Origin: Lachnospiraceae bacterium
Lineage (GTDB): Bacteria > Bacillota > Clostridia > Lachnospirales > Lachnospiraceae
Length of the DNA: 44,664 bases
Direction: 5' to 3'
Assembly: GCA_030531165.1 (NCBI GenBank)
Contig: JAUNOI010000012.1
Coordinates: forward strand, 1 to 44,664
The notes under the pieces were generated by a model, which was given only the letters and a program-made list of their open reading frames with translations, was not told the origin of the DNA and ran no database searches. Positions 1 to 8,009 of this stretch are shown here, piece after piece. Position numbers and translations under genes: made by a program. Position 1 is the stretch's first letter, and each line of letters begins with the position of its first letter.

Positions 1-153
1 CCCTATTTGGGTCCAAGATTGTGAACGAGTTTAACGAGTTTCGCAATTACCTAAATAATATAACTTGTTTCTCTATGTAATAAGCGTTTGATCATTAGAA
101 AGATCCTTGGGCCTAAATCGTTCTAATGCATATCCGCTTTTTACATCATAAAA
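1..153. other. Gene-free edge with imperfect inverted repeat
   Basis: No open frame continues past gutM here on the minus strand. I see a tandem duplication of AACGAGTTT (24-41) and an imperfect inverted repeat between about 5-19 and 103-118 (ATTTGGGTCCAAGAT against ATCCTTGGGCCTAAAT). There is no clear U-tailed terminator, so transcription from gutM may continue beyond position 1, where the remaining glucitol PTS subunits would be expected. The repeat could also be the edge of a mobile or repeated element; the window does not settle this. Confidence 0.3.
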
Positions 154-639
154 TTATAAATCATCGATATCGAAATCCTCTTCCATATCCTCTGCTGCAT
201 TTAACTCCGCAGCGAATGCATCCTCTGATTCATAGGCAAATCGCATCTCAATTGCCTCAAGTGCCTGAATAAAACCTTTGTAATAATTCTGTTCTTTCTG
301 CGTCATGCTTCGAAATTCTGTCAGGTAGTCGTAAATCGTCTCACCTTCCACGATCGGACGCTTTTCAATAATCTCTTTTAACGGTTTAAATCTGGCAAAT
401 AACGTGATCCCTTCCATAATCTGACCGCCTGTGATAACACCTTCTCTGTTACACCCTATGATCACAATATTCCCCTTAATAATTCCAAACTTCGCTTTCT
501 TTTGTCCTACTCCGATCGTACCCAAACTTCTGCTCTCTCTCAAAGCTTTCTGATAGGCACGAATCTGAAATACCGAAAGAAATGACTGTAACAGATAAAT
601 TAAAAACAGTGCAACGAATATTTTTAAAATTGCATTCAT
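154..639 (-). CDS. gutM: GutM-family glucitol operon activator-like protein
   Basis: A 161-residue protein with one N-terminal hydrophobic segment (about residues 3-26) followed by the GutM-type core (QKALRESRSLGTIGVG, then a KGNIVIIGC stretch) and a very acidic C-terminal tail. Family knowledge: GutM of enteric bacteria (about 119 residues) is an accessory activator of the glucitol operon, and the longer clostridial form usually sits directly before the glucitol PTS IIC gene. Its molecular action is poorly defined, and the membrane-anchor-like start argues against a simple DNA-binding protein. It has its own promoter (719-746) preceded by the same 18-base box found before the SorC gene. The start is supported by a purine-rich AAAGGTGG site a few bases upstream. 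Confidence 0.8.
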   Translation of the reverse strand: MNAILKIFVALFLIYLLQSFLSVFQIRAYQKALRESRSLGTIGVGQKKAKFGIIKGNIVIIGCNREGVITGGQIMEGITLFARFKPLKEIIEKRPIVEGETIYDYLTEFRSMTQKEQNYYKGFIQALEAIEMRFAYESEDAFAAELNAAEDMEEDFDIDDL

Positions 640-718
640 GCAATATCCACCTTTCTATATGGCACTTTAAACAAAAAAATCGATATAAATACACAATTTT
701 TTTGTTCAATATATTTAT

Positions 719-746
719 ATTTTACATGAAATAAAATTCATGTCAA
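719..746 (-). promoter_or_regulatory. Sigma-A promoter of gutM
   Basis: Reading the minus strand, TTGACA (741-746) is followed after 16 bases by TAAAAT (719-724). It faces gutM and leaves a leader of about 70 bases. Confidence 0.6.
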
Positions 747-756
747 CCATTTCGAC

Positions 757-774
757 TTGAACATTTGTATAAGT
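757..774. promoter_or_regulatory. Putative SorC operator, copy 1
   Basis: The plus-strand 18-mer TTGAACATTTGTATAAGT is identical to 6977-6994. It ends 10 bases upstream of the -35 box of the gutM promoter, the usual place for an activator. A second related stretch, TCATTTAT followed by GTATTTGTT, lies further out at 791-813 and resembles 7007-7027 beside the other copy. Binding by the SorC protein encoded at 5913-6878 is inferred. Confidence 0.6.
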
Positions 775-824
775 ACATTTTCCAGAACGATCATTTATAT
801 TTTTGTATTTGTTAATTTTTTGTT

Positions 825-1532
825 TTAGTTATCTTGCTTTAATTCATTATATTTTTCTAACAAATTAGCATATTTTTCCAACAACTCCACATACTTTTGA
901 TAATAATCATCTTGTTGATTTTCACTCTGCAACACGGATTTTTCTTTTGTTTGAGATTGTAAATCCATGATCTTTTTTTCCGTTTCAAAAGAATCTTCTT
1001 TCTTCGATTCTTTATATTGCTTCATCAGATCCTGCGTCGTCGGATTATCGGAATTCTCTTTCGCTTTATAGTATGCAGCCGTCAGATCCGTCATGTCCGG
1101 TTTACGCTCCGGAAAGTTCTCCTCCCAGATTCCCTTCATACCGCTTTCCACACGCTGAGCCACAGTCGGCCGAATCTCTTTTTCCGGCTTCATAATACAG
1201 ATAATCTTATAAATTGTCGGATTCTTCTTTGCATACAATAATAATCCAACCGAAATTACCGCTGCTGTGAATAACGCACACGAAATCTGTATCCACCAGA
1301 AACCAAGCGCTTTATCAGTTTCGAAAAAGTGTTCATATACAAGAAGTGCCGCACCTGCAATCAGCAGCATGGCAATTAAAAGTTTCCATCCCATCACTGC
1401 CGAACCTTTTATCTTGTCTATCTCTTCCATCGTCCATTCTGTCCGATTACGATTCTGCCGCATACCTTCTTTACCAACATTAAAACCAATTGCAACCGCA
1501 TAAACAACAGCTGCAGCTATCATACCCCACAT
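825..1532 (-). CDS. Unknown membrane protein with C-terminal coiled coil
   Basis: I do not recognise this 235-residue protein. It has three hydrophobic stretches: a short one at the N-terminus (about residues 3-19), and two good membrane helices (about 46-70 and 76-101). A long polar, charged cytoplasmic tail follows and ends in a heptad-like coiled coil (about 205-235, repeated LLEKY). The start is chosen for an AGGAGG site seven bases upstream. It lies between the PTS IIA gene and gutM, on the same strand. A weak terminator-like hairpin upstream (1611-1651) and a separate gutM promoter downstream suggest it is only loosely tied to the sugar operon. A role in the transporter is possible but unsupported by any motif. 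Confidence 0.7.
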   Translation of the reverse strand: MWGMIAAAVVYAVAIGFNVGKEGMRQNRNRTEWTMEEIDKIKGSAVMGWKLLIAMLLIAGAALLVYEHFFETDKALGFWWIQISCALFTAAVISVGLLLYAKKNPTIYKIICIMKPEKEIRPTVAQRVESGMKGIWEENFPERKPDMTDLTAAYYKAKENSDNPTTQDLMKQYKESKKEDSFETEKKIMDLQSQTKEKSVLQSENQQDDYYQKYVELLEKYANLLEKYNELKQDN

Positions 1533-1610
1533 AGAACATCCTCCTGAAAATTAAATAGATTCTCGCAAAACATTTTTTGTCATATAGGAAATCCAATGGA
1601 TTTTCTATAC

Positions 1611-1651
1611 AACGAAAAAGGGACACGACAATCTGCCATGCCCCTATCGTT
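1611..1651 (-). terminator. Weak hairpin with U-tract after PTS IIA
   Basis: On the minus strand an imperfect stem (AGGGGCATGGC against GTCGTGTCCCT) is followed by TTTTT. An outer AACGA/TCGTT pairing extends it. It probably attenuates or ends the transcript from the aldolase-IIA genes. Confidence 0.4.
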
Positions 1652-1676
1652 CTTTTATAATACGATATTATAAAAA

Positions 1677-2051
1677 TTAATATACTTCAATTTTAGTACC
1701 TGGCTGTAAATCATCTACTGTGAGCGCTTCCCCTGCAGCCTCTAACATAATACAACCTGGTCTTTCTGGTTCCGGACCGCCTTTAAAATCAATCGTAGCA
1801 TGTCCAAGTCCTCTTAATGTAGCGTTCGCTTCAGAACCTACTGCAGAAACTGTAAATGCTTTTTCACCAATAACAAATGTATCACCAACTTCGACATCTG
1901 CCATCAATTCAGATTTCGTATGTAAAACACACAACTCTGCTAATGCAGGTGGTGCATCATCATTGAATAAGATAATAAAGTTTGTAGATGGATCTCCTAA
2001 AAATGCAAATGCATCTGGTCCATGTCCTGTGATTTTTGTATTAAATTTCAT
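1677..2051 (-). CDS. srlB: PTS glucitol/sorbitol-type enzyme IIA
   Basis: A 124-residue protein matching the glucitol IIA family over its full length. It has the KITGHGPDA start, the block FNDDAPPALAELCVLHTK with the likely phosphorylated His44, a GEKAFTVSAVGSEAN core and LGHATIDFKG. In this family IIA takes phosphate from HPr and passes it to the IIB domain, so the incoming polyol is phosphorylated during uptake; it acts in the cytoplasm. The start is supported by AAGGAGAAC upstream. It follows the aldolase by about 175 bases. No IIB or IIC gene lies in the window, so the rest of the permease is probably beyond gutM. The actual substrate may be another polyol, given the unusual catabolic genes beside it. 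Confidence 0.9.
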   Translation of the reverse strand: MKFNTKITGHGPDAFAFLGDPSTNFIILFNDDAPPALAELCVLHTKSELMADVEVGDTFVIGEKAFTVSAVGSEANATLRGLGHATIDFKGGPEPERPGCIMLEAAGEALTVDDLQPGTKIEVY

Positions 2052-2226
2052 TGCGTTCTCCTTTCATTCTAGCCAATATCCATACTGTTATTCTACCTTC
2101 TAGCTGTAACCCTTGTCAATGTTTTTTGTGCATTTTGATAAATATCTTTTCCATATACTGACAGTCTGCTATTGTTTTTTATGTAAAAGGTCAAGAACTC
2201 AATTCATATTTTATTTTTTCATTTTC

Positions 2227-3060
2227 TTATGCCTGTTTTGTCTCAAAAACTTCATAATAATGCTTCAGGCAAGATTGCATTCCTTCTTTTACAGCTGCTA
2301 ATAATGATAAATAATCTTCCGGCGCTGTTTTTTTAACAGAATCCATTGCAGCCAAATACAGATCTGTATAGATATTTACCTTGGAAATACCTTCTTTTGC
2401 ACATCTGTTCAAATTATCATCCCCGGATCCGGAACCGCCATGAAGGACTAATGGCACATCGGTAGCTGCATGAATGGCATGCAGAGAATCAAAACTAATC
2501 TCAGGAATCGCTTTCGCTTTATATACGCCGTGGGCGGTTCCGATTGAAATTGCCAGGGAATCACATCCGGATTCTTCTGCAAACTTCTTCGCTTCCTCCG
2601 GCTGTGTATACAACGCTTCTGTATCATTTGTATCGAAGTTGCTGGCTACATGTCCGATTTCCGCTTCTACAGAAACATCTTTTGCCTTTGCATATTCCAC
2701 AACCTCTTTTGTTGTGGCTACGTTTTCTTCAAAGCTCTTCATAGATGCATCAATCATAACAGATGTGAATCCAAGATCGATCGCTTTTTTACATGTATCT
2801 ACACTCATACCATGGTCCAAATGTAAAACAACAGGTATTGTCGCTTCTTCGGCATACTTTTTGCCAACCAGCGCTACATCTTCCAGGGTCATATTCGGAC
2901 CCAGATGTCCCTCTGCTACACCGATAATCAACGGCAACCCCAGCTCTTCCGCAACGCCTACATGCGCTTTCATACTTTCCATATCTAATACATTTGCAGA
3001 TGGAATCGCATAATGTTCTTTCTGTGCTTTTTGAAATAATTCTTTTGAATTGACTAACAT
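2227..3060 (-). CDS. Class II ketose-bisphosphate aldolase
   Basis: A 277-residue zinc-dependent aldolase of the fructose/tagatose-bisphosphate (FbaA/GatY/KbaY) family. Visible signatures are HLDHG (catalytic Asp82, zinc ligand His83), EAEIGHV with Glu134, GTAHGVY with His177, VLHGGSGSG with His207, and the phosphate-binding SKVNIYTDL. The family splits a ketose bisphosphate into dihydroxyacetone phosphate and an aldehyde. The start has a clear AGGAGG. It lies 15 bases after the YjbQ-like gene, so the two are cotranscribed. The product dihydroxyacetone phosphate would connect to the TIM-like isomerase two genes upstream. Substrate choice (fructose, tagatose or a shorter sugar) cannot be read from the sequence. 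Confidence 0.92.
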   Translation of the reverse strand: MLVNSKELFQKAQKEHYAIPSANVLDMESMKAHVGVAEELGLPLIIGVAEGHLGPNMTLEDVALVGKKYAEEATIPVVLHLDHGMSVDTCKKAIDLGFTSVMIDASMKSFEENVATTKEVVEYAKAKDVSVEAEIGHVASNFDTNDTEALYTQPEEAKKFAEESGCDSLAISIGTAHGVYKAKAIPEISFDSLHAIHAATDVPLVLHGGSGSGDDNLNRCAKEGISKVNIYTDLYLAAMDSVKKTAPEDYLSLLAAVKEGMQSCLKHYYEVFETKQA

Positions 3061-3075
3061 CGAAATACCTCCTGT

Positions 3076-3606
3076 TTATTCTCCGATAACGATTATTTTG
3101 CATTTACGAGGGCGCGGACGAGTACGGTCAAAATCCACAAAATAAATATATCCCGTCGAACCGACACCGAGTTTTCCTCCATCTACTTCCAGCGTTTCAC
3201 TAGATCCTAAGATTGTAGATTTAATGTGAGCATCGCAATTTAATAATGCGGTACGGTCTCCGCCCGGAAGATAGTCGGCCGCATTTGGCCAGGATTCCAC
3301 ATCCTGAAAATGAGCTTCACCCGGATACATATATTCGCCGGAAGGCGGCATTTCCGTCTGATTCGGCACAATCTTCTGTAAACATTTATCCAGATCAATC
3401 TGAAGGAATTCTGTTCCATCTTCTATCGTATCATGCACGAATTCTTCAAAAAATACCGAACATGTCGTATGAGGGGAGATGATCGTCACGATTCCATTCT
3501 GAATTTTGCTATTTGTAATCGCCTCTTTTACCTGAGGAGTAATATTAATGAAAGTTGGTGTGGTACCATGTGATTGTAATTGAATTGTCTCTTTATATAC
3601 AGCCAT
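3076..3606 (-). CDS. YjbQ/UPF0047-family protein, long form
   Basis: A 176-residue protein starting at MAVYKETIQL; an AAGGAGAAC site just upstream supports this start over a longer in-frame one. It carries the family block SPHTTCSVFFEE (about residues 44-55) and NCDAHIKSTILG, equivalent to the PHTTAAL and N-DAHLK-LLG motifs. Family members are usually near 140 residues and lack an agreed role; some have a weak thiamine-phosphate synthase activity. This one is longer, mainly through an insertion with PSGEYMYPGE before the NCDAH motif, and the usual C-terminal GTWQ-like motif is changed to GSTGYIYF. It sits between the TIM-like gene (11-base gap) and the aldolase (15-base gap), so it very likely serves the same sugar pathway. 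I would not call it a thiamine enzyme. Confidence 0.85.
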   Translation of the reverse strand: MAVYKETIQLQSHGTTPTFINITPQVKEAITNSKIQNGIVTIISPHTTCSVFFEEFVHDTIEDGTEFLQIDLDKCLQKIVPNQTEMPPSGEYMYPGEAHFQDVESWPNAADYLPGGDRTALLNCDAHIKSTILGSSETLEVDGGKLGVGSTGYIYFVDFDRTRPRPRKCKIIVIGE

Positions 3607-3617
3607 TGTTGTTCTCC

Positions 3618-4319
3618 TTAATTCTCTGATTCTGTACGCTCTATGTATGCCTTTTTGATCGCCTCTGCCATCTCTCTGACACGAAGCGCTGGAGATGGTG
3701 CATTTAAAATACCTGAAGTACATCCAGTTCCATCTGAACCTGCTTTTACGATCTTATAGCAGTCATCCGCTGTACTTACGCCTGACGCGATCATTGGCTG
3801 TACATTCGGATTGACTTTTCTGATCTGCTTTACTGTTTCGATCATATAAGAATCATCGGCAATCTGTCCGGTTCCGATCAGATCTGTCGGTTCCGCGATA
3901 ATAATGTTAGGATCCATAAGCGCAACTGCCTTTGCCTCAGTAGTAGAGTCCGCACACACGATCGTAACCATATCCAGTTCTTTCGCACGGCAAATAGAAG
4001 CATAGAGATCTGCAAGCATCTTTGGATTTTCCGCATGATTTAAAAATACTGCTTCTGCTCCTGCTTCTTTTAAAGATTCCGGAAGCACATGTCCCATTCC
4101 GCGTCCAGGCGTCAAAGGATCCAGCGACTGCGCACATACCGTAATGTATTGTGTATTTTCCTTAATCAGACGGATGTCCGCATAAGGACATGTAAAATAA
4201 ATCTGAATGCCAACTTCTCTTGCTACCTGATCAGAAGCCTTTGCCAGCTCTAAACTTGCATTTCCATATAAATAAGATTTCGGATTAACAACTAAAAATG
4301 GTTTTTCTGCTTTTGCCAT
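3618..4319 (-). CDS. TIM-like triose (or tetrose) phosphate isomerase
   Basis: A 233-residue protein of the triosephosphate isomerase family in its short, archaeal-like form (bacterial glycolytic TIM is about 250). Catalytic residues are present: Asn12 and Lys14 in VVNPKSY, His95 in FLNHAENP, Glu143 in IAEPTDLIGTG, and a phosphate-binding IASGVST and GSDGTGCTSG. The changes around the motifs suggest a paralogue dedicated to this operon and not the housekeeping enzyme. TIM-like paralogues act on erythrulose phosphates in erythritol pathways (TpiB/EryH type), which makes a tetrulose phosphate a reasonable substrate guess. The start has AAAGGA. It is preceded by the SAF-domain dehydrogenase and a strong intercistronic hairpin, and followed at 11 bases by the YjbQ-like gene. 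Confidence 0.85.
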   Translation of the reverse strand: MAKAEKPFLVVNPKSYLYGNASLELAKASDQVAREVGIQIYFTCPYADIRLIKENTQYITVCAQSLDPLTPGRGMGHVLPESLKEAGAEAVFLNHAENPKMLADLYASICRAKELDMVTIVCADSTTEAKAVALMDPNIIIAEPTDLIGTGQIADDSYMIETVKQIRKVNPNVQPMIASGVSTADDCYKIVKAGSDGTGCTSGILNAPSPALRVREMAEAIKKAYIERTESEN

Positions 4320-4423
4320 AATAAATTCCTTTCTCTATATGACACTACTCATCACTAACATTCTCCCCAGAATGAAAGCGCCATCTTTCATTAATCATTT
4401 CGATGATTTATCATCTGATAGAC

Positions 4424-4456
4424 ACAAGTACGCCGTTTGCAGGATGGCGTACTTGT
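4424..4456. other. Strong intercistronic hairpin
   Basis: ACAAGTACGCC (4424-4434) pairs perfectly with GGCGTACTTGT (4446-4456) around an 11-base loop. It has no U-tract on the coding side, so it is more likely a processing or stabilising stem between the dehydrogenase and isomerase genes than a terminator. Confidence 0.55.
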
Positions 4457-4488
4457 ATCGTGATTTATTTTAAATCAAATTATCAATA

Positions 4489-5811
4489 TTATAATAAATT
4501 GGTTTTTCCGTAGATTTTATCCTGTTCCTGACGCAATTTGTACACGTATGTACTTGTATCAAGCTGGATATCATCTAATGTGATCAACTGACCTTTCTTA
4601 ACATCTCTCTTCATAACCGCTTTATCTGTAACTAAGCCGAATGGTACGTATTTGTTCGCATCAGAAACGGCAGCTTCACAGATAGAACCATGAGTAGTAT
4701 ATCCACCCATTCCATCGATCGTCTGTCCTGCTTTTAAGTCGATCTTAGCACGTGTGATACATTCAGCAACCAATCCATCAATTGGTACGCACTGAGGTTC
4801 TTTATCAATCACTAACTTAGCAACGGTCAATGGAGTCTCTAAGTTACATAAGTGATATGGACGGTATAATGTCCAGAGAGGTCCAGGACCCATGCTGTGG
4901 TATCCCATCTGATATGCAATTTCATCATTTGGTGTAGATACTGTTACGAATACACCAGGAGCGATTCCGTTAACATATTCAACAACACCATGTTTATTTA
5001 AGATACCACCATCCTCTTTTAATTTGAAGACATCGTTTAACTCTTTTACGCCTTCTGTTCCAGGAGAAACCTGTGGACCATGTCCTCCGATCACGTCAGG
5101 AATCAAACCAGTGTAATTACACATAGCTGTCATCTCTACCATTGTCTTTGTACCATCTTTGAATGCACAAAGCATACGCGGAGACATCTTTCTTCTTGTA
5201 GCTTCTTCTAATACTGTGTCAGGATTGCAGTCATAGTCAAGTTTATTATTTTTACCTTTACCCATAACTTCAACTGTCATTCCCATTGCTCTTGCAAAGC
5301 AGTAAAGTTCCATAACAGCACCCGGTTCATCACCAGCAGAACCTGTATAGATAACGCCTTTGCTTGCAGCATATCTCTTTAAGTAAGGTCCGATAACAAC
5401 ATCCGTTTCAACATTCATCATTACAACGTCTTTTCCGTTGTCCATTGCTTCAATCGAAAGTTTTGCTCCAACATCAGGATGACCTGTAACATCTACCAAT
5501 ACCTGAACAGCATCGGCGCTTGTTGCAATGGATGTATTTGTAGTAGCAACGAATTTACCAGCTTCGATTGCTGTATTTGCCTCTTCGATCGTATCAACAC
5601 AAGCGATCATCTCGTCTGTGATACCTGCGTATTTGAATGCTGCTACTGCTAAGTCTAATTTAAGGTCTGCTACTACCGCAGCTTTGATACCCTTCATAAG
5701 GCACATCTGAGTTACCATTCCTCGTCCCATCTGACCTGCACCAACGATACCTGTCATGATGATTTTGCCTTCTTCTTCTCTTTTGATTAATTTTTGATCC
5801 ATATTCAGCAT
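4489..5811 (-). CDS. COG4091-like NAD(P) dehydrogenase with SAF domain
   Basis: A 440-residue protein. An AAGGAGG nine bases upstream fixes the start at MLNMDQKL, although the frame stays open for ten more codons. It begins with a Rossmann fold (GIVGAGQMGRG, about residues 21-31), followed by a homoserine-dehydrogenase-like catalytic region containing GSAGDEPGAVMEL and NPDTVLEEATRRKM. It ends with a SAF domain (about 345-425, FGLVTDKAVMKRDVKKGQLIT), a fold also found in antifreeze-like and flagellar proteins. Family members are annotated as predicted homoserine dehydrogenase-like and sit beside sugar genes in many bacteria, but I know no firm reaction. As first structural gene after the SorC regulator it probably acts early on the imported sugar phosphate, as an oxidoreductase or oxidation-isomerisation enzyme. 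Confidence 0.85.
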   Translation of the reverse strand: MLNMDQKLIKREEEGKIIMTGIVGAGQMGRGMVTQMCLMKGIKAAVVADLKLDLAVAAFKYAGITDEMIACVDTIEEANTAIEAGKFVATTNTSIATSADAVQVLVDVTGHPDVGAKLSIEAMDNGKDVVMMNVETDVVIGPYLKRYAASKGVIYTGSAGDEPGAVMELYCFARAMGMTVEVMGKGKNNKLDYDCNPDTVLEEATRRKMSPRMLCAFKDGTKTMVEMTAMCNYTGLIPDVIGGHGPQVSPGTEGVKELNDVFKLKEDGGILNKHGVVEYVNGIAPGVFVTVSTPNDEIAYQMGYHSMGPGPLWTLYRPYHLCNLETPLTVAKLVIDKEPQCVPIDGLVAECITRAKIDLKAGQTIDGMGGYTTHGSICEAAVSDANKYVPFGLVTDKAVMKRDVKKGQLITLDDIQLDTSTYVYKLRQEQDKIYGKTNLL

Positions 5812-5912
5812 GTTTAAGTTCCTCCTTGTTTTAAACATCACACAACTCTATGTTAAGAATCGGCAATCCTCATAAAGGCCCAAGAGATTGTCCATTCTTT
5901 AACATCTGATTA

Positions 5913-6878
5913 CTACTGAAGCATCTTCTGTGCACAATCAACATCTGTGATCAACATGTTGATAAACTGTCCTCTGATCGCACCTTTGATCGCATGCGCT
6001 TTTTGAGCTCCACCGCCGATGCCAATGCGGTTTTCCACTCGTTTTAATTCCTTGATCGGAATGCTTGCAACCTTATCATTGAATTCCCTGAACGGCTCCG
6101 TATTTCCTTCGCGGTTAAAATACCGAAGTGCAATATCGCCGACCGCCCCGTGGTCCACAAACTTCGTCAGCTGTTCTTCTGTAATATAGCCTGCGGAAAC
6201 CATTGTGGAGTTTCTCTCAGGAATTCCAATGCCCATAATGACACTATTTAATTTCTTAAAGTAGTCATATATATAATTTACAGATTCCTCCTGAAGAAAT
6301 CCTTTCATGACTTCCTCATTCCGAAATACTGCCGGTGCCAGAAACTGTACATAGCGGCCTCCAAACTTCTGTGCGAAATCCGCTGCAATCTGGTTCGCCT
6401 GTACATTGACTTTGCCCACTTTCATCTGGCTAATACCACCAAACATCGGGACAAATAAAAACTGTTTGTCAAATTCATATTTTTTCTTGACATTTGCCAC
6501 ATGATACAGAGTACTTCCCATCGCAACTCCAATTGTATCTCCATCTTTAAACAGATGGGAAAGATAATCGAAACTCGCTTCACTCAGTCTCTGAATTCTG
6601 TCTTCCTCCGTATCTAAAGGTTGATTATCTACAATAATGACTTCCTTTAAACCATATTTTCTCTCCAGATCTTTTTCCAGCTGTCCATAATCAAATTCGA
6701 TTGGATTGATCACTTCAATCCGAACAATTCCCTGTTCCCGTCCAATCTTCAGCATTCTGGAAACTGTCGCTCTGGATAATCCCAAGGAATCGCAAATGTC
6801 TTGTTGTGTCATCTCATCTGTATAATATAAATCACAACATTTATATACCAGTCTCAAATCATCAACTATCTTTTTCAT
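5913..6878 (-). CDS. SorC-family sugar-phosphate-sensing regulator
   Basis: A 321-residue regulator with an N-terminal helix-turn-helix (about residues 20-45, TQQDICDSLGLSRATVSRM) and a C-terminal effector domain of the SorC/DeoR-NagB-like fold (DTIGVAMGSTLYHVAN, LFVPMFGG, GIGIPERN, GDIALRYFNREG, IGIGGGAQKAHAI). This family binds phosphorylated sugars and can activate or repress. The start has CAGGAGG. It leads the operon and has a consensus promoter at 6939-6967. The identical 18-base box upstream of this promoter and of the gutM promoter suggests it binds both. Because the box lies just upstream of -35 in both places, activation with autoregulation is the simplest reading. Confidence 0.9.
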   Translation of the reverse strand: MKKIVDDLRLVYKCCDLYYTDEMTQQDICDSLGLSRATVSRMLKIGREQGIVRIEVINPIEFDYGQLEKDLERKYGLKEVIIVDNQPLDTEEDRIQRLSEASFDYLSHLFKDGDTIGVAMGSTLYHVANVKKKYEFDKQFLFVPMFGGISQMKVGKVNVQANQIAADFAQKFGGRYVQFLAPAVFRNEEVMKGFLQEESVNYIYDYFKKLNSVIMGIGIPERNSTMVSAGYITEEQLTKFVDHGAVGDIALRYFNREGNTEPFREFNDKVASIPIKELKRVENRIGIGGGAQKAHAIKGAIRGQFINMLITDVDCAQKMLQ

Positions 6879-6938
6879 TTCCGCCTCCTGTTAGTCACGT
6901 GCAGTTTCATCAGCCCTGTAAGTTATCCTTACAATGAC

Positions 6939-6967
6939 ATCATATCAACGCATTTATTCATTGTCAA
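6939..6967 (-). promoter_or_regulatory. Sigma-A promoter of the SorC operon
   Basis: Minus strand: TTGACA (6962-6967), 17-base spacer, TATGAT (6939-6944). The transcript would start about 60 bases before the SorC start codon. Confidence 0.75.
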
Positions 6968-6976
6968 TAATTATTA

Positions 6977-6994
6977 TTGAACATTTGTATAAGT
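6977..6994. promoter_or_regulatory. Putative SorC operator, copy 2
   Basis: TTGAACATTTGTATAAGT, identical to 757-774, nine bases upstream of the -35 box of the SorC promoter. A second shared stretch (TCATTTAT followed by GCATTTGTT) lies at 7007-7027. Confidence 0.6.
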
Positions 6995-7065
6995 CGTTTT
7001 TAATATTCATTTATTTATGCATTTGTTCTTTTCAATATGAAAATTCGTCTGAATATGTCAATTTA

Positions 7066-7815
7066 TTAACAATTAATTGATCTTCCACCATCAATAATAT
7101 AATTGCTTCCGGTAATCCATGCCCCTTTTTCCGAAATTAAAAAGCAGATTAGCTCTGCCACATCATCCGCTGTCCCAATTCCCATCGGATAGGCATTCGA
7201 AGAATCCTCCAAATACTCTTCATATTCCCTTCCTGACATCATATGATTGTGAATCTGAAAACCAGTATTGATCAATCCTGGATTTACTGTATTTACCCTG
7301 ATATAATAGTTTGATAATTCTTTGGCAAGCGATTTTGTCATCATATCCACCGCAGCCTTGCTTGCAGAATATGCCATGCAGCCTCCTGTAATCTGCGACG
7401 CGATCGATGAAACATTGATCACGCATGCAGATTCCGCACGTTTTAAAAGACGGGACATCTTTTTTATGATCTTAAACGGAACATGCACATTTACTTCGAA
7501 CACTTTTTTCCATTCTTCAGAAGAGATATCCTCTATTCCTCCGCCTGCCATAATTGCTGCATTATTAATCACAACATTGACATATCCGTACTTATTAAAT
7601 AAATATTGATACGCCTCATCAATCACCTCTTCATCCATGATATCTCCCTGGATAAAGAAAACTTTATCCGAATTTAACCTTTTCTTTGTTTTTTCAATTT
7701 TTTCTGTATTTCTTGACACAGAGATAACCTCATAATCCCTCTCGAGCAGTTTCTTCAGCAGAACAAAGCCGAGTCCGCTGGTACCACCTGTAATAAACGC
7801 TACCTTTCTCATCAT
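7066..7815 (-). CDS. SDR-family oxidoreductase
   Basis: A 249-residue classical short-chain dehydrogenase. TGGTSGLG (residues 9-16) is the NAD(P)-binding motif and NNAA the central structural motif. The catalytic Ser, Tyr and Lys appear in INVSSIAS and AYSASKAAV, followed by VNPGLINTGF and a C-terminal GSNYIIDGG. I place the start at the ATG six bases after GAGGTG; an in-frame GTG three codons earlier is less likely. Substrate is not readable. It ends only 70 bases before the SorC operator on the same strand, so it could be a polyol phosphate dehydrogenase for the operon (E. coli SrlD is also an SDR), but it has its own upstream region with a palindrome (7835-7872). Confidence 0.85.
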   Translation of the reverse strand: MMRKVAFITGGTSGLGFVLLKKLLERDYEVISVSRNTEKIEKTKKRLNSDKVFFIQGDIMDEEVIDEAYQYLFNKYGYVNVVINNAAIMAGGGIEDISSEEWKKVFEVNVHVPFKIIKKMSRLLKRAESACVINVSSIASQITGGCMAYSASKAAVDMMTKSLAKELSNYYIRVNTVNPGLINTGFQIHNHMMSGREYEEYLEDSSNAYPMGIGTADDVAELICFLISEKGAWITGSNYIIDGGRSINC

Positions 7816-7834
7816 AACACACACCTCATTTGAT

Positions 7835-7872
7835 AATATTTATAGAAAACACTCTCATTTTCTATAGATATT
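7835..7872. promoter_or_regulatory. Palindrome upstream of SDR gene
   Basis: AATATTTATAGAAAA (7835-7849) and TTTTCTATAGATATT (7858-7872) form a 15-base inverted repeat with one mismatch around eight bases. It lies 20 bases before the SDR start and within the divergent region to the gene at 8010, so it could be an operator for either. Confidence 0.45.
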
Positions 7873-8009
7873 ATACATTATTCTTTATTATTTGAAAATA
7901 ATCATTGTTATATTTCACAAGAATTCACTCTTTTTATACATTTTTTTGTATGTTTATTATGACATTTGATGCTATAATAACACTATGTACGAAAAGAAAG
8001 GAATGTTTT

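Follow-up and report, generated by a model that had tools for sequence, protein, structure and literature searches.

Type II 1-deoxy-D-xylulose 5-phosphate (DXP) reductoisomerase (DXR-II, or DRL) is known structurally from Brucella abortus (PDB 3upy; PMC3847144, in excerpt), and DXR-II proteins have been assigned to COG4091 (PMC10663253, in excerpt). The discussion in PMC3847144 asks how an enzyme redundant with the canonical reductoisomerase (DXR-I, gene dxr) evolved and was kept, and states that no lifestyle trait matched its scattered spread except animal pathogenicity. Here we describe an operon from a Lachnospiraceae bacterium, on a stretch of 44,664 nucleotides (contig JAUNOI010000012.1; hereafter the window), in which a protein that is almost certainly a DXR-II is encoded together with a glucitol/sorbitol-type phosphotransferase system (PTS), a paralogue of triosephosphate isomerase (TIM), a YjbQ/UPF0047 protein and a class II ketose-phosphate aldolase. 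What is new is the presence of an essential isoprenoid enzyme, as sole recognisable copy, inside a sugar-alcohol PTS operon. We consider the chances about even that this operon imports and degrades 2-C-methyl-D-erythritol (ME), its dehydrogenase doubling as the cell's DXP reductoisomerase.

With the Brucella-type DXR-II (PDB 3upl, 3upy) the window enzyme shares its family, the named diagnostic, substrate and dimer residues, and an occurrence without DXR-I. However, it lies in a PTS operon with a TIM-YjbQ-aldolase triad, carries an Asp from which use of NAD is expected, and is predicted to work mainly in the oxidative direction. The enteric srl/gut sorbitol operon has in common with the window operon the glucitol-type IIA, GutM and, in relatives of the window locus, IIC and IIB, whereas the SorC-type regulator, DXR-II, TIM, YjbQ and aldolase are features of the window operon. 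Moreover, no sorbitol-6-phosphate dehydrogenase was recognised by Pfam or NCBIfam among the operon proteins up to the contig end, in agreement with the first-pass annotation of this DNA. SorC-type regulation is also found in the erythritol pathway, where the regulator is EryD. The erythritol and threitol pathways (LerK-LerI-DerI, EryABC) further share a TIM homologue, which there handles a tetrulose phosphate (LerI, a TpiA homologue, acts on erythrulose phosphate; passages of PMC10733421); in the window a PTS stands in for the kinase, the pathway would end in an aldolase step rather than in erythrose 4-phosphate, and a branched substrate is proposed. An EryABC/LerK-type tetritol pathway was rejected, as no tetritol dehydrogenase or tetrulose kinase was recognised by Pfam or NCBIfam in nine window proteins. 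The dihydroxyacetone phosphate (DHAP) shunt (MtnK/DrdK, MtnA/DrdI, DrdA) has the same last step as we propose here, from 5-deoxypentulose 1-phosphate to DHAP and acetaldehyde, in that DrdA cleaves 5-deoxyribulose 1-phosphate to these products (PMC6079011, in excerpt). It differs in its upstream enzymes, its substrate and its fuculose-type DrdA, where the window has a class II aldolase of fructose-bisphosphate aldolase (FBA) type; no MtnK/MtnA-type kinase or isomerase and no fuculose-type aldolase was found among the nine window proteins scanned, the aldolase being of PF01116 type. Lastly, the 5'-methylthioadenosine (MTA)-isoprenoid shunt of Rhodospirillum likewise joins deoxy ketopentose 1-phosphates and 5-phosphates and feeds DXP (5-methylthioribulose 1-phosphate to 1-methylthioxylulose 5-phosphate to DXP; PMC10663253, in excerpt), but uses a RuBisCO-like protein and a cupin, and the direction we propose is the opposite one. 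The first-pass annotation held that the gene set matches no pathway known to it. In the open-licence PMC literature we likewise recognised no paper describing such an operon among the matches listed for DXR-II with a PTS, for operons with YjbQ and for breakdown of ME.

The proposed pathway would begin with import of ME by the glucitol-type PTS, delivering 2-C-methyl-D-erythritol 4-phosphate (MEP), which is the product of DXR. DXR-II would interconvert MEP and DXP, oxidatively for degradation and in the opposite direction to make MEP for isoprenoids. The TIM-like protein and YjbQ would then shift the ketone from C2 to C4, so that it adjoins the CH2-phosphate, giving 5-deoxypentulose 1-phosphate; this takes two carbonyl shifts, and the operon offers two small candidate isomerases. 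Finally, the class II aldolase would cleave 5-deoxypentulose 1-phosphate to DHAP and acetaldehyde. The sorbitol PTS of Salmonella reportedly transports ME, going by the title of a paper by Testa et al. Moreover, ME is a branched tetritol, and the earlier suggestion of a tetritol or related polyol as substrate therefore keeps its plausibility. As to the parts of this proposal, we regard ME as the substrate with evenly divided confidence, whereas the details of the TIM, YjbQ and aldolase steps are tentative and may well need revision. On a broader view, ME, a plant isoprenoid intermediate, would feed a wide group of gut Clostridia and their relatives through a pathway not described before; a single DXR-II would work both ways in it, and the TIM-like protein would form with YjbQ a new module that walks the carbonyl along the chain. 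We give this notion somewhat less than an even chance. If true, it would give the widespread UPF0047/YjbQ family its first pathway context and metabolic function.

The first-pass annotation had described the central enzyme as a SAF/COG4091 protein of unknown reaction. It matches the DRL catalytic domain PF21135, its sole PDB matches are 3upl and 3upy (Table 1), and it is 42% identical to the Brucella DRL (181 of 432 aligned residues). The text of PMC3847144 names sites at which DXR-II is conserved whereas the groups DLO1 and/or DLO2 vary, plus substrate and dimer residues. All 23 DXR-II-typical sites named in that text are kept in the window protein, including G121, T229, H250 and V351, as are the five further substrate or dimer residues (E174, F178, K191, K193 and Y322). 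In all, 29 positions were compared and 28 are the same; the one that differs, 318, was our own addition. Thus the substrate-binding residues K191, K193 and T229 and the dimer residues E174, F178, R320 and Y322 are all present. Across 49 PTS-linked homologues, K191, K193, T229 and R320 occur in every sequence, E174 and F178 in 46 and Y322 in 48. The DLO1/DLO2 signature is absent from the window protein, which has Gly at 121 (Ala or Ser in DLO) and Thr at 229 (hydrophobic, Pro, Ser or Ala in DLO). With all 56 divergence sites tabled in PMC3847144 taken into account, 30 match, compared with 40% (175/433) over the whole alignment. We conclude from these residues that the central operon protein is almost certainly a type II DXP reductoisomerase, and the label of unknown reaction can be dropped. 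Among the window open reading frames (ORFs) listed, its gene ranks first in the share of two-fold codons that end in C (0.43-0.44; next 0.34), and this strongest codon signal suggests high expression.

The genome that holds the window carries ispG and a single DXR-II, the operon copy, and a genome search found no DXR-I in the assembly, which is 85.5% complete. Given this completeness, we inspected the dxr site itself. The contig runs unbroken through a pyrH-like ORF, frr, uppS, cdsA, rseP, ispG and a 1465-aa ORF (frr, uppS, cdsA, rseP and ispG by hidden Markov model, HMM), and only 19 nt separate cdsA from rseP, exactly where a genome with DXR-I (L129) carries dxr. The same order without dxr was read from ORF starts in Anaerostipes sp. 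992a (L127), whose record is not labelled as a metagenome-assembled genome (MAG), and in L128. We rejected an assembly gap as the cause of the missing DXR-I in view of the closed cdsA-rseP junction.

We extended this comparison to two samples. The first is a set of 45 loci in public genomes, collected for their similarity to the window DXR-II and hereafter called the related loci. Several of them are truncated by contig ends, and they yield 39 DXR-II genes with a length of 400 aa or more, which lean towards kin of the window protein. DXR-I was found in 9 of 24 genomes searched behind these loci and ispG in 24 of 25, own genome included. The second is a class sample of 391 Clostridia genomes, of which 36 have DXR-II, 326 have DXR-I (called at E <= 0.001) and nine of the 36 have both. 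DXR-I is missing in 27/36 DXR-II carriers compared with 38/355 non-carriers (Fisher p 1.5e-16), whilst ispG is present in all 36 carriers. The association holds among genomes at least 90% complete (26/34 against 25/283; p 2.4e-17) and when family f34 (14 genomes) is left out (p 2.3e-7). It is also seen within families: in f1, to which the window genome belongs, that genome lacks DXR-I and 15/15 DXR-II-free members have it; in f78 two carriers lack it and two non-carriers have it; and in f56 it is missing in 4/5 carriers and present in both non-carriers. Canonical dxr being gone, DXR-II would make the cell's MEP, and we think it very probable that the operon enzyme serves as the cell's DXR. A catabolic PTS role would offer a direct answer to the question of DXR-II redundancy and would tie isoprenoid synthesis in gut bacteria to diet; a catabolic origin would, if true, explain the persistence of DXR-II beside DXR-I and the repeated later loss of DXR-I.

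That the operon DXR-II is the sole DXR found would also suit a pathway running in reverse, in which the aldolase joins DHAP and acetaldehyde, the isomerases turn the product into DXP and DXR-II makes MEP from it, giving isoprenoids without DXP synthase (Dxs), or a PTS that merely salvages ME for isoprenoids. According to the excerpted text of PMC10663253, 172 species without Dxs have no known substitute, and loci with PTS and DXR-II without a nearby triad fit salvage. However, the PTS, the SorC-type regulator, the NAD-type DXR-II and the strong codon bias fit degradation better, and we consider a reverse or salvage route improbable.

Gene neighbourhoods of DXR-II homologues were compared for glucitol PTS genes, as the first-pass annotation had proposed. 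IIA or GutM lies within 8 kb of DXR-II for 36/39 genes in the related loci and for 13/38 in the class sample (38 DXR-II genes of at least 400 aa taken), and TIM or YjbQ lies within 9 kb for 20/39 genes in the related loci. The grouping of DXR-II with the PTS is beyond chance. A tree with 79 rows places 49 of its 50 PTS-labelled rows, the window included, in one set of 56 (support 99/89); the lone PTS-labelled row outside, L063 from the distant family f34, has IIC, IIB, DXR-II, aldolase, TIM, YjbQ and IIA together, and its genome carries a second DXR-II about 39 kb off (L062). The tree held no DLO sequence, so that DXR-II is set apart from DLO1 and DLO2 by the published site descriptions, a point to be counted against our assignment. 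Seven unlabelled rows lie inside the set, namely L049, L055 and L057, which are second copies in PTS-bearing genomes, and L051, L008, L010 and L018, the last three each having a contig end at most 2 kb away on one side. Outside the set, genes for a flavoprotein of HI0933 type and for a tRNA synthetase of class I (I/L/M/V) flank the DXR-II of L113, and the neighbours in L100 and L064 look alike. In L059 (9395-14210) ispF and ispD are found two genes away from DXR-II, on its own strand. These four look like housekeeping copies, and the setting of L059 backs an MEP role for Firmicutes DXR-II. In an Anaerostipes MAG (L017:4566-8455) two identical DXR-II rows are separated by a regulator-like ORF, which could be an assembly effect or a true duplication.

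At the end of beta-strand 2 the window protein and all 49 PTS-linked homologues have Asp, where Brucella has Ala-Arg-Arg. In 28 other homologues this position is Ser (14), Asp (12), Glu (1) or Asn (1), and seven of these 12 Asp sequences lie inside the PTS-linked tree set. In Rossmann folds an Asp here favours NAD, and NAD rather than NADP is therefore expected for the window DXR-II; a catabolic role would predict a DXR of NADH type that could be put to practical use in engineering isoprenoid synthesis. We rejected the idea that DXR-II is a mere isoprenoid gene strayed into the operon, since the PTS link recurs and the NAD-type residue is found in 49/49.

These data also bear on whether this is an ordinary sorbitol operon, with DXR-II as a passenger housekeeping gene and the sorbitol-6-phosphate dehydrogenase either beyond position 1 or encoded by the short-chain dehydrogenase/reductase (SDR) gene at 7066-7824. 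Such an operon would account for the glucitol-type IIA and GutM, and the SDR gene does lie just upstream of the regulator, which it also adjoins in L004, L006 and L043. However, the link between DXR-II and PTS recurs in many loci with the NAD-type residue throughout, the top NCBIfam model of the SDR scores 188 bits (cut-off 215), sorbitol-6-phosphate dehydrogenase is not among the matches listed for it (25 of 235 NCBIfam families), and no such gene was seen next to the regulator in L005, L007 and the majority of the other loci. A dehydrogenase beyond position 1, the outcome that the first-pass annotation named as refuting, was not seen in L043 or L005, where GutM is followed by IIC- and IIB-type ORFs (HMM-scanned in L043, by ORF look in L005) and then by short ORFs that by eye are not dehydrogenase-like; in L006 a zinc dehydrogenase does lie there. 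We therefore judge the sorbitol operon quite improbable.

The TIM paralogue appears dedicated. It scores above the cut-off of NF003302 (Table 1), and the near relatives L043, L005 and L006 have a canonical TIM elsewhere in the genome besides the paralogue. In the window's own, incomplete genome only the paralogue was found and no canonical TIM. Residues K14, H95 and E143, which we take to be the catalytic Lys, His and Glu of TIM, are invariant in 11 aligned sequences. YjbQ lies within 1.5 kb on the same strand for 56 of 65 TIM-like genes (67 minus two places seen twice, L130 and L131). Within the related loci, TIM-like genes are accompanied by YjbQ in 21/21 cases and by aldolase in 19/21; for those apart from DXR-II (L118-L125) the figures are 8/8 and 6/8. 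The class sample contains 56 archaeal-type TIM places above cut-off, in 48/391 genomes, and seven of them are in DXR-II carriers (G000, G063, G117, G263, G332 and two in G385). Aldolase adjoins TIM in six of these seven (the miss being L051 of G332) compared with none of 29 non-carrier regions, which come from 26 genomes and are a part of all such regions (Fisher p 3.6e-6). Archaeal-type TIM by itself shows no tie to DXR-II, being above cut-off in 6/36 carriers and 42/355 non-carriers. Taken together, TIM-YjbQ is a wider pair, and it is the three-gene set with aldolase that goes with DXR-II.

Elsewhere TIM-YjbQ is accompanied by XylB-like kinases, Ara- or Fuc-isomerase-like proteins, GutQ-like SIS proteins and fructose-6-phosphate aldolase (FSA). 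The loci L147:5112-11926 (also with FSA), L155:2416-7083 and L142:3896-8492, in DXR-II-free Clostridia, combine the pair with a XylB-like kinase, an Ara/Fuc isomerase-like protein and a GutQ-like SIS protein and may represent a second pentose-type pathway; L147 and part of L155 were HMM-scanned and L142 was judged by look. At L002 (G000:C144), elsewhere in the genome, lie two neighbouring ORFs of class II aldolase type that share 39% and 35% identity with the operon aldolase.

Several observations weigh against degradation of ME. DXR favours MEP, so that the oxidative step would need pull from downstream. Two carbonyl shifts are required, and the isomerase role of YjbQ is a proposal. The NAD-type Asp also occurs in L059, near ispD and ispF, and this residue alone is therefore no proof of degradation. 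The triad of L149 (7361-11676; HMM-scanned), like that of L150 (5827-10269; look-alike ORFs), lies beside a SorC-type regulator with an FGGY pentulose kinase and an Rpe-like epimerase that would feed it, in genomes that also carry DXR-II, and L063 has FSA/transaldolase and transketolase beside the triad; both settings suggest that the triad may serve other pentulose phosphates. Of 14 genomes in the class sample with a PTS-linked DXR-II, nine have no archaeal-type TIM above cut-off, and L103 (G116) has an aldolase beside DXR-II with no TIM or YjbQ within the 13 kb examined. It may be that the triad handles pentulose phosphates in general, or that the PTS with DXR-II often serves salvage only. 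With regard to dxr loss, the association statistics allow for kinship only by omitting f34, DXR-I is kept by 6/6 carriers of f10, f24, f27 and f60 and by 2/4 in f47, and a needed isoprenoid gene inside a substrate-regulated operon is odd. Moreover, the window protein departs from Brucella at 26 of the 56 divergence sites tabled in PMC3847144.

Some of these points would suit an operon for another polyol, be it a pentitol, a hexitol or a hydroxymethyl-branched one such as apiitol, with DXR-II acting mainly on the phosphate of that polyol and DXR activity as a second use that permitted dxr loss. The PTS is named for glucitol, the L149 triad is downstream of a pentulose kinase, L063 has its FSA/transaldolase and transketolase, a zinc alcohol dehydrogenase and a further aldolase are present in L006, and nearly half of the tabled sites (26/56) depart from Brucella DXR-II. 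However, the named DXR-II-typical and substrate residues are retained, and a substrate of linear or apiitol type would, on pathway logic, lead to ordinary pentose or hexose phosphates with no need for the aldolase triad. We therefore regard another polyol as rather unlikely.

Regulation was examined through candidate operators and promoter-like sites (Table 1). The 18-base candidate operator has two matches at <=3 mismatches, compared with 0.13 expected, and two matches were seen in 1/100 shuffles. Operator-like sites (<=3 mismatches) are also present at both corresponding places in L043, L005 and L006, which were picked as the nearest loci; among the upstream stretches of eight loci examined, L007 has none and that of L032 sits more than 200 nt upstream of its regulator. 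The promoter-like sites rest on consensus match, and such sites (23) are no more frequent than in shuffles (22.4). The placement of the operator just upstream of the -35 boxes suggests an activator site. Through these identical copies the SorC-type regulator is probably an activator of both transcription units, and would switch on regulator/DXR-II and GutM-PTS. Its top NCBIfam match is the Bacillus-type DeoR, at 214.8 bits (cut-off 420).

The span 1677-6878 was originally described as five genes in tight order. The genes stand as open frames with their domains, but the ORF list and profile scans give six, all on the minus strand, and close packing is true of TIM-YjbQ-aldolase but not of the 169 nt between DXR-II and TIM or the 175 nt, with a promoter-like site, between aldolase and IIA. 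The likely ATG start of the DXR-II frame (5841-4489) is 5811; the 215-aa YjbQ frame from 3723 is over-extended, and the ATG at 3606 is preceded by a ribosome-binding site. Because the contig stops at position 1, IIC and IIB of the window operon are cut off. L043, a close relative, shares this gene order, which there continues from GutM into glucitol-family IIC and IIB, and in L043 and L063 IIC and IIB exceed the SrlA and SrlE cut-offs by HMM scan. The ORF at 825-1532, which has no family match in Pfam or NCBIfam, is kept between IIA and GutM in L005, L006 and L043.

Table 1. Genes and candidate regulatory sites of the window operon.
Feature	Position	Strand	Evidence or remark
Candidate operator ACTTATACAAATGTTCAA	6977..6994	-	9 nt upstream of -35 box, regulator promoter; exact copy of 757-774
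Promoter-like site, regulator/DXR-II unit	6939..6967	-	TTGACA-17-TATGAT, 11/12 consensus, TG before second hexamer
SorC/LsrR-type regulator	5913..6878	-	PF04198 9.3e-62
DXR-II (DRL, COG4091)	4489..5841	-	PF21135 5.9e-61; PDB 3upl E 6.8e-95; diagnostic residues
Archaeal-type TIM paralogue	3618..4319	-	NF003302 172.8 bits, cut-off 132
YjbQ/UPF0047 protein	3076..3606	-	PF01894 5.4e-24; TIGR00149 71.7 bits, cut-off 67.75 (both scored on over-extended frame)
Class II ketose-phosphate aldolase	2227..3060	-	PF01116 3.4e-91; TIGR00167 252 bits, cut-off 215.6
Promoter-like site before IIA	2090..2119	-	TTGACA-18-TAGAAT, 11/12; consensus only
Glucitol/sorbitol-type PTS IIA	1677..2051	-	PF03829 2.7e-29, above cut-off; TIGR00849 75 bits, below cut-off 189.55
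Membrane-type ORF	825..1532	-	homologues in L005, L006, L043
Second exact operator copy	757..774	-	10 nt upstream of -35 box, GutM promoter
Promoter-like site, GutM-IIC-IIB unit	719..746	-	TTGACA-16-TAAAAT, 11/12; consensus only
GutM	154..639	-	PF06923 1.2e-22

A scan of window positions 1-8000 against Rfam gave 0 matches. By eye, an 11-bp perfect inverted repeat without a T run can be seen at 4424-4456, in the gap between DXR-II and TIM, and is a possible mRNA processing or attenuation site.

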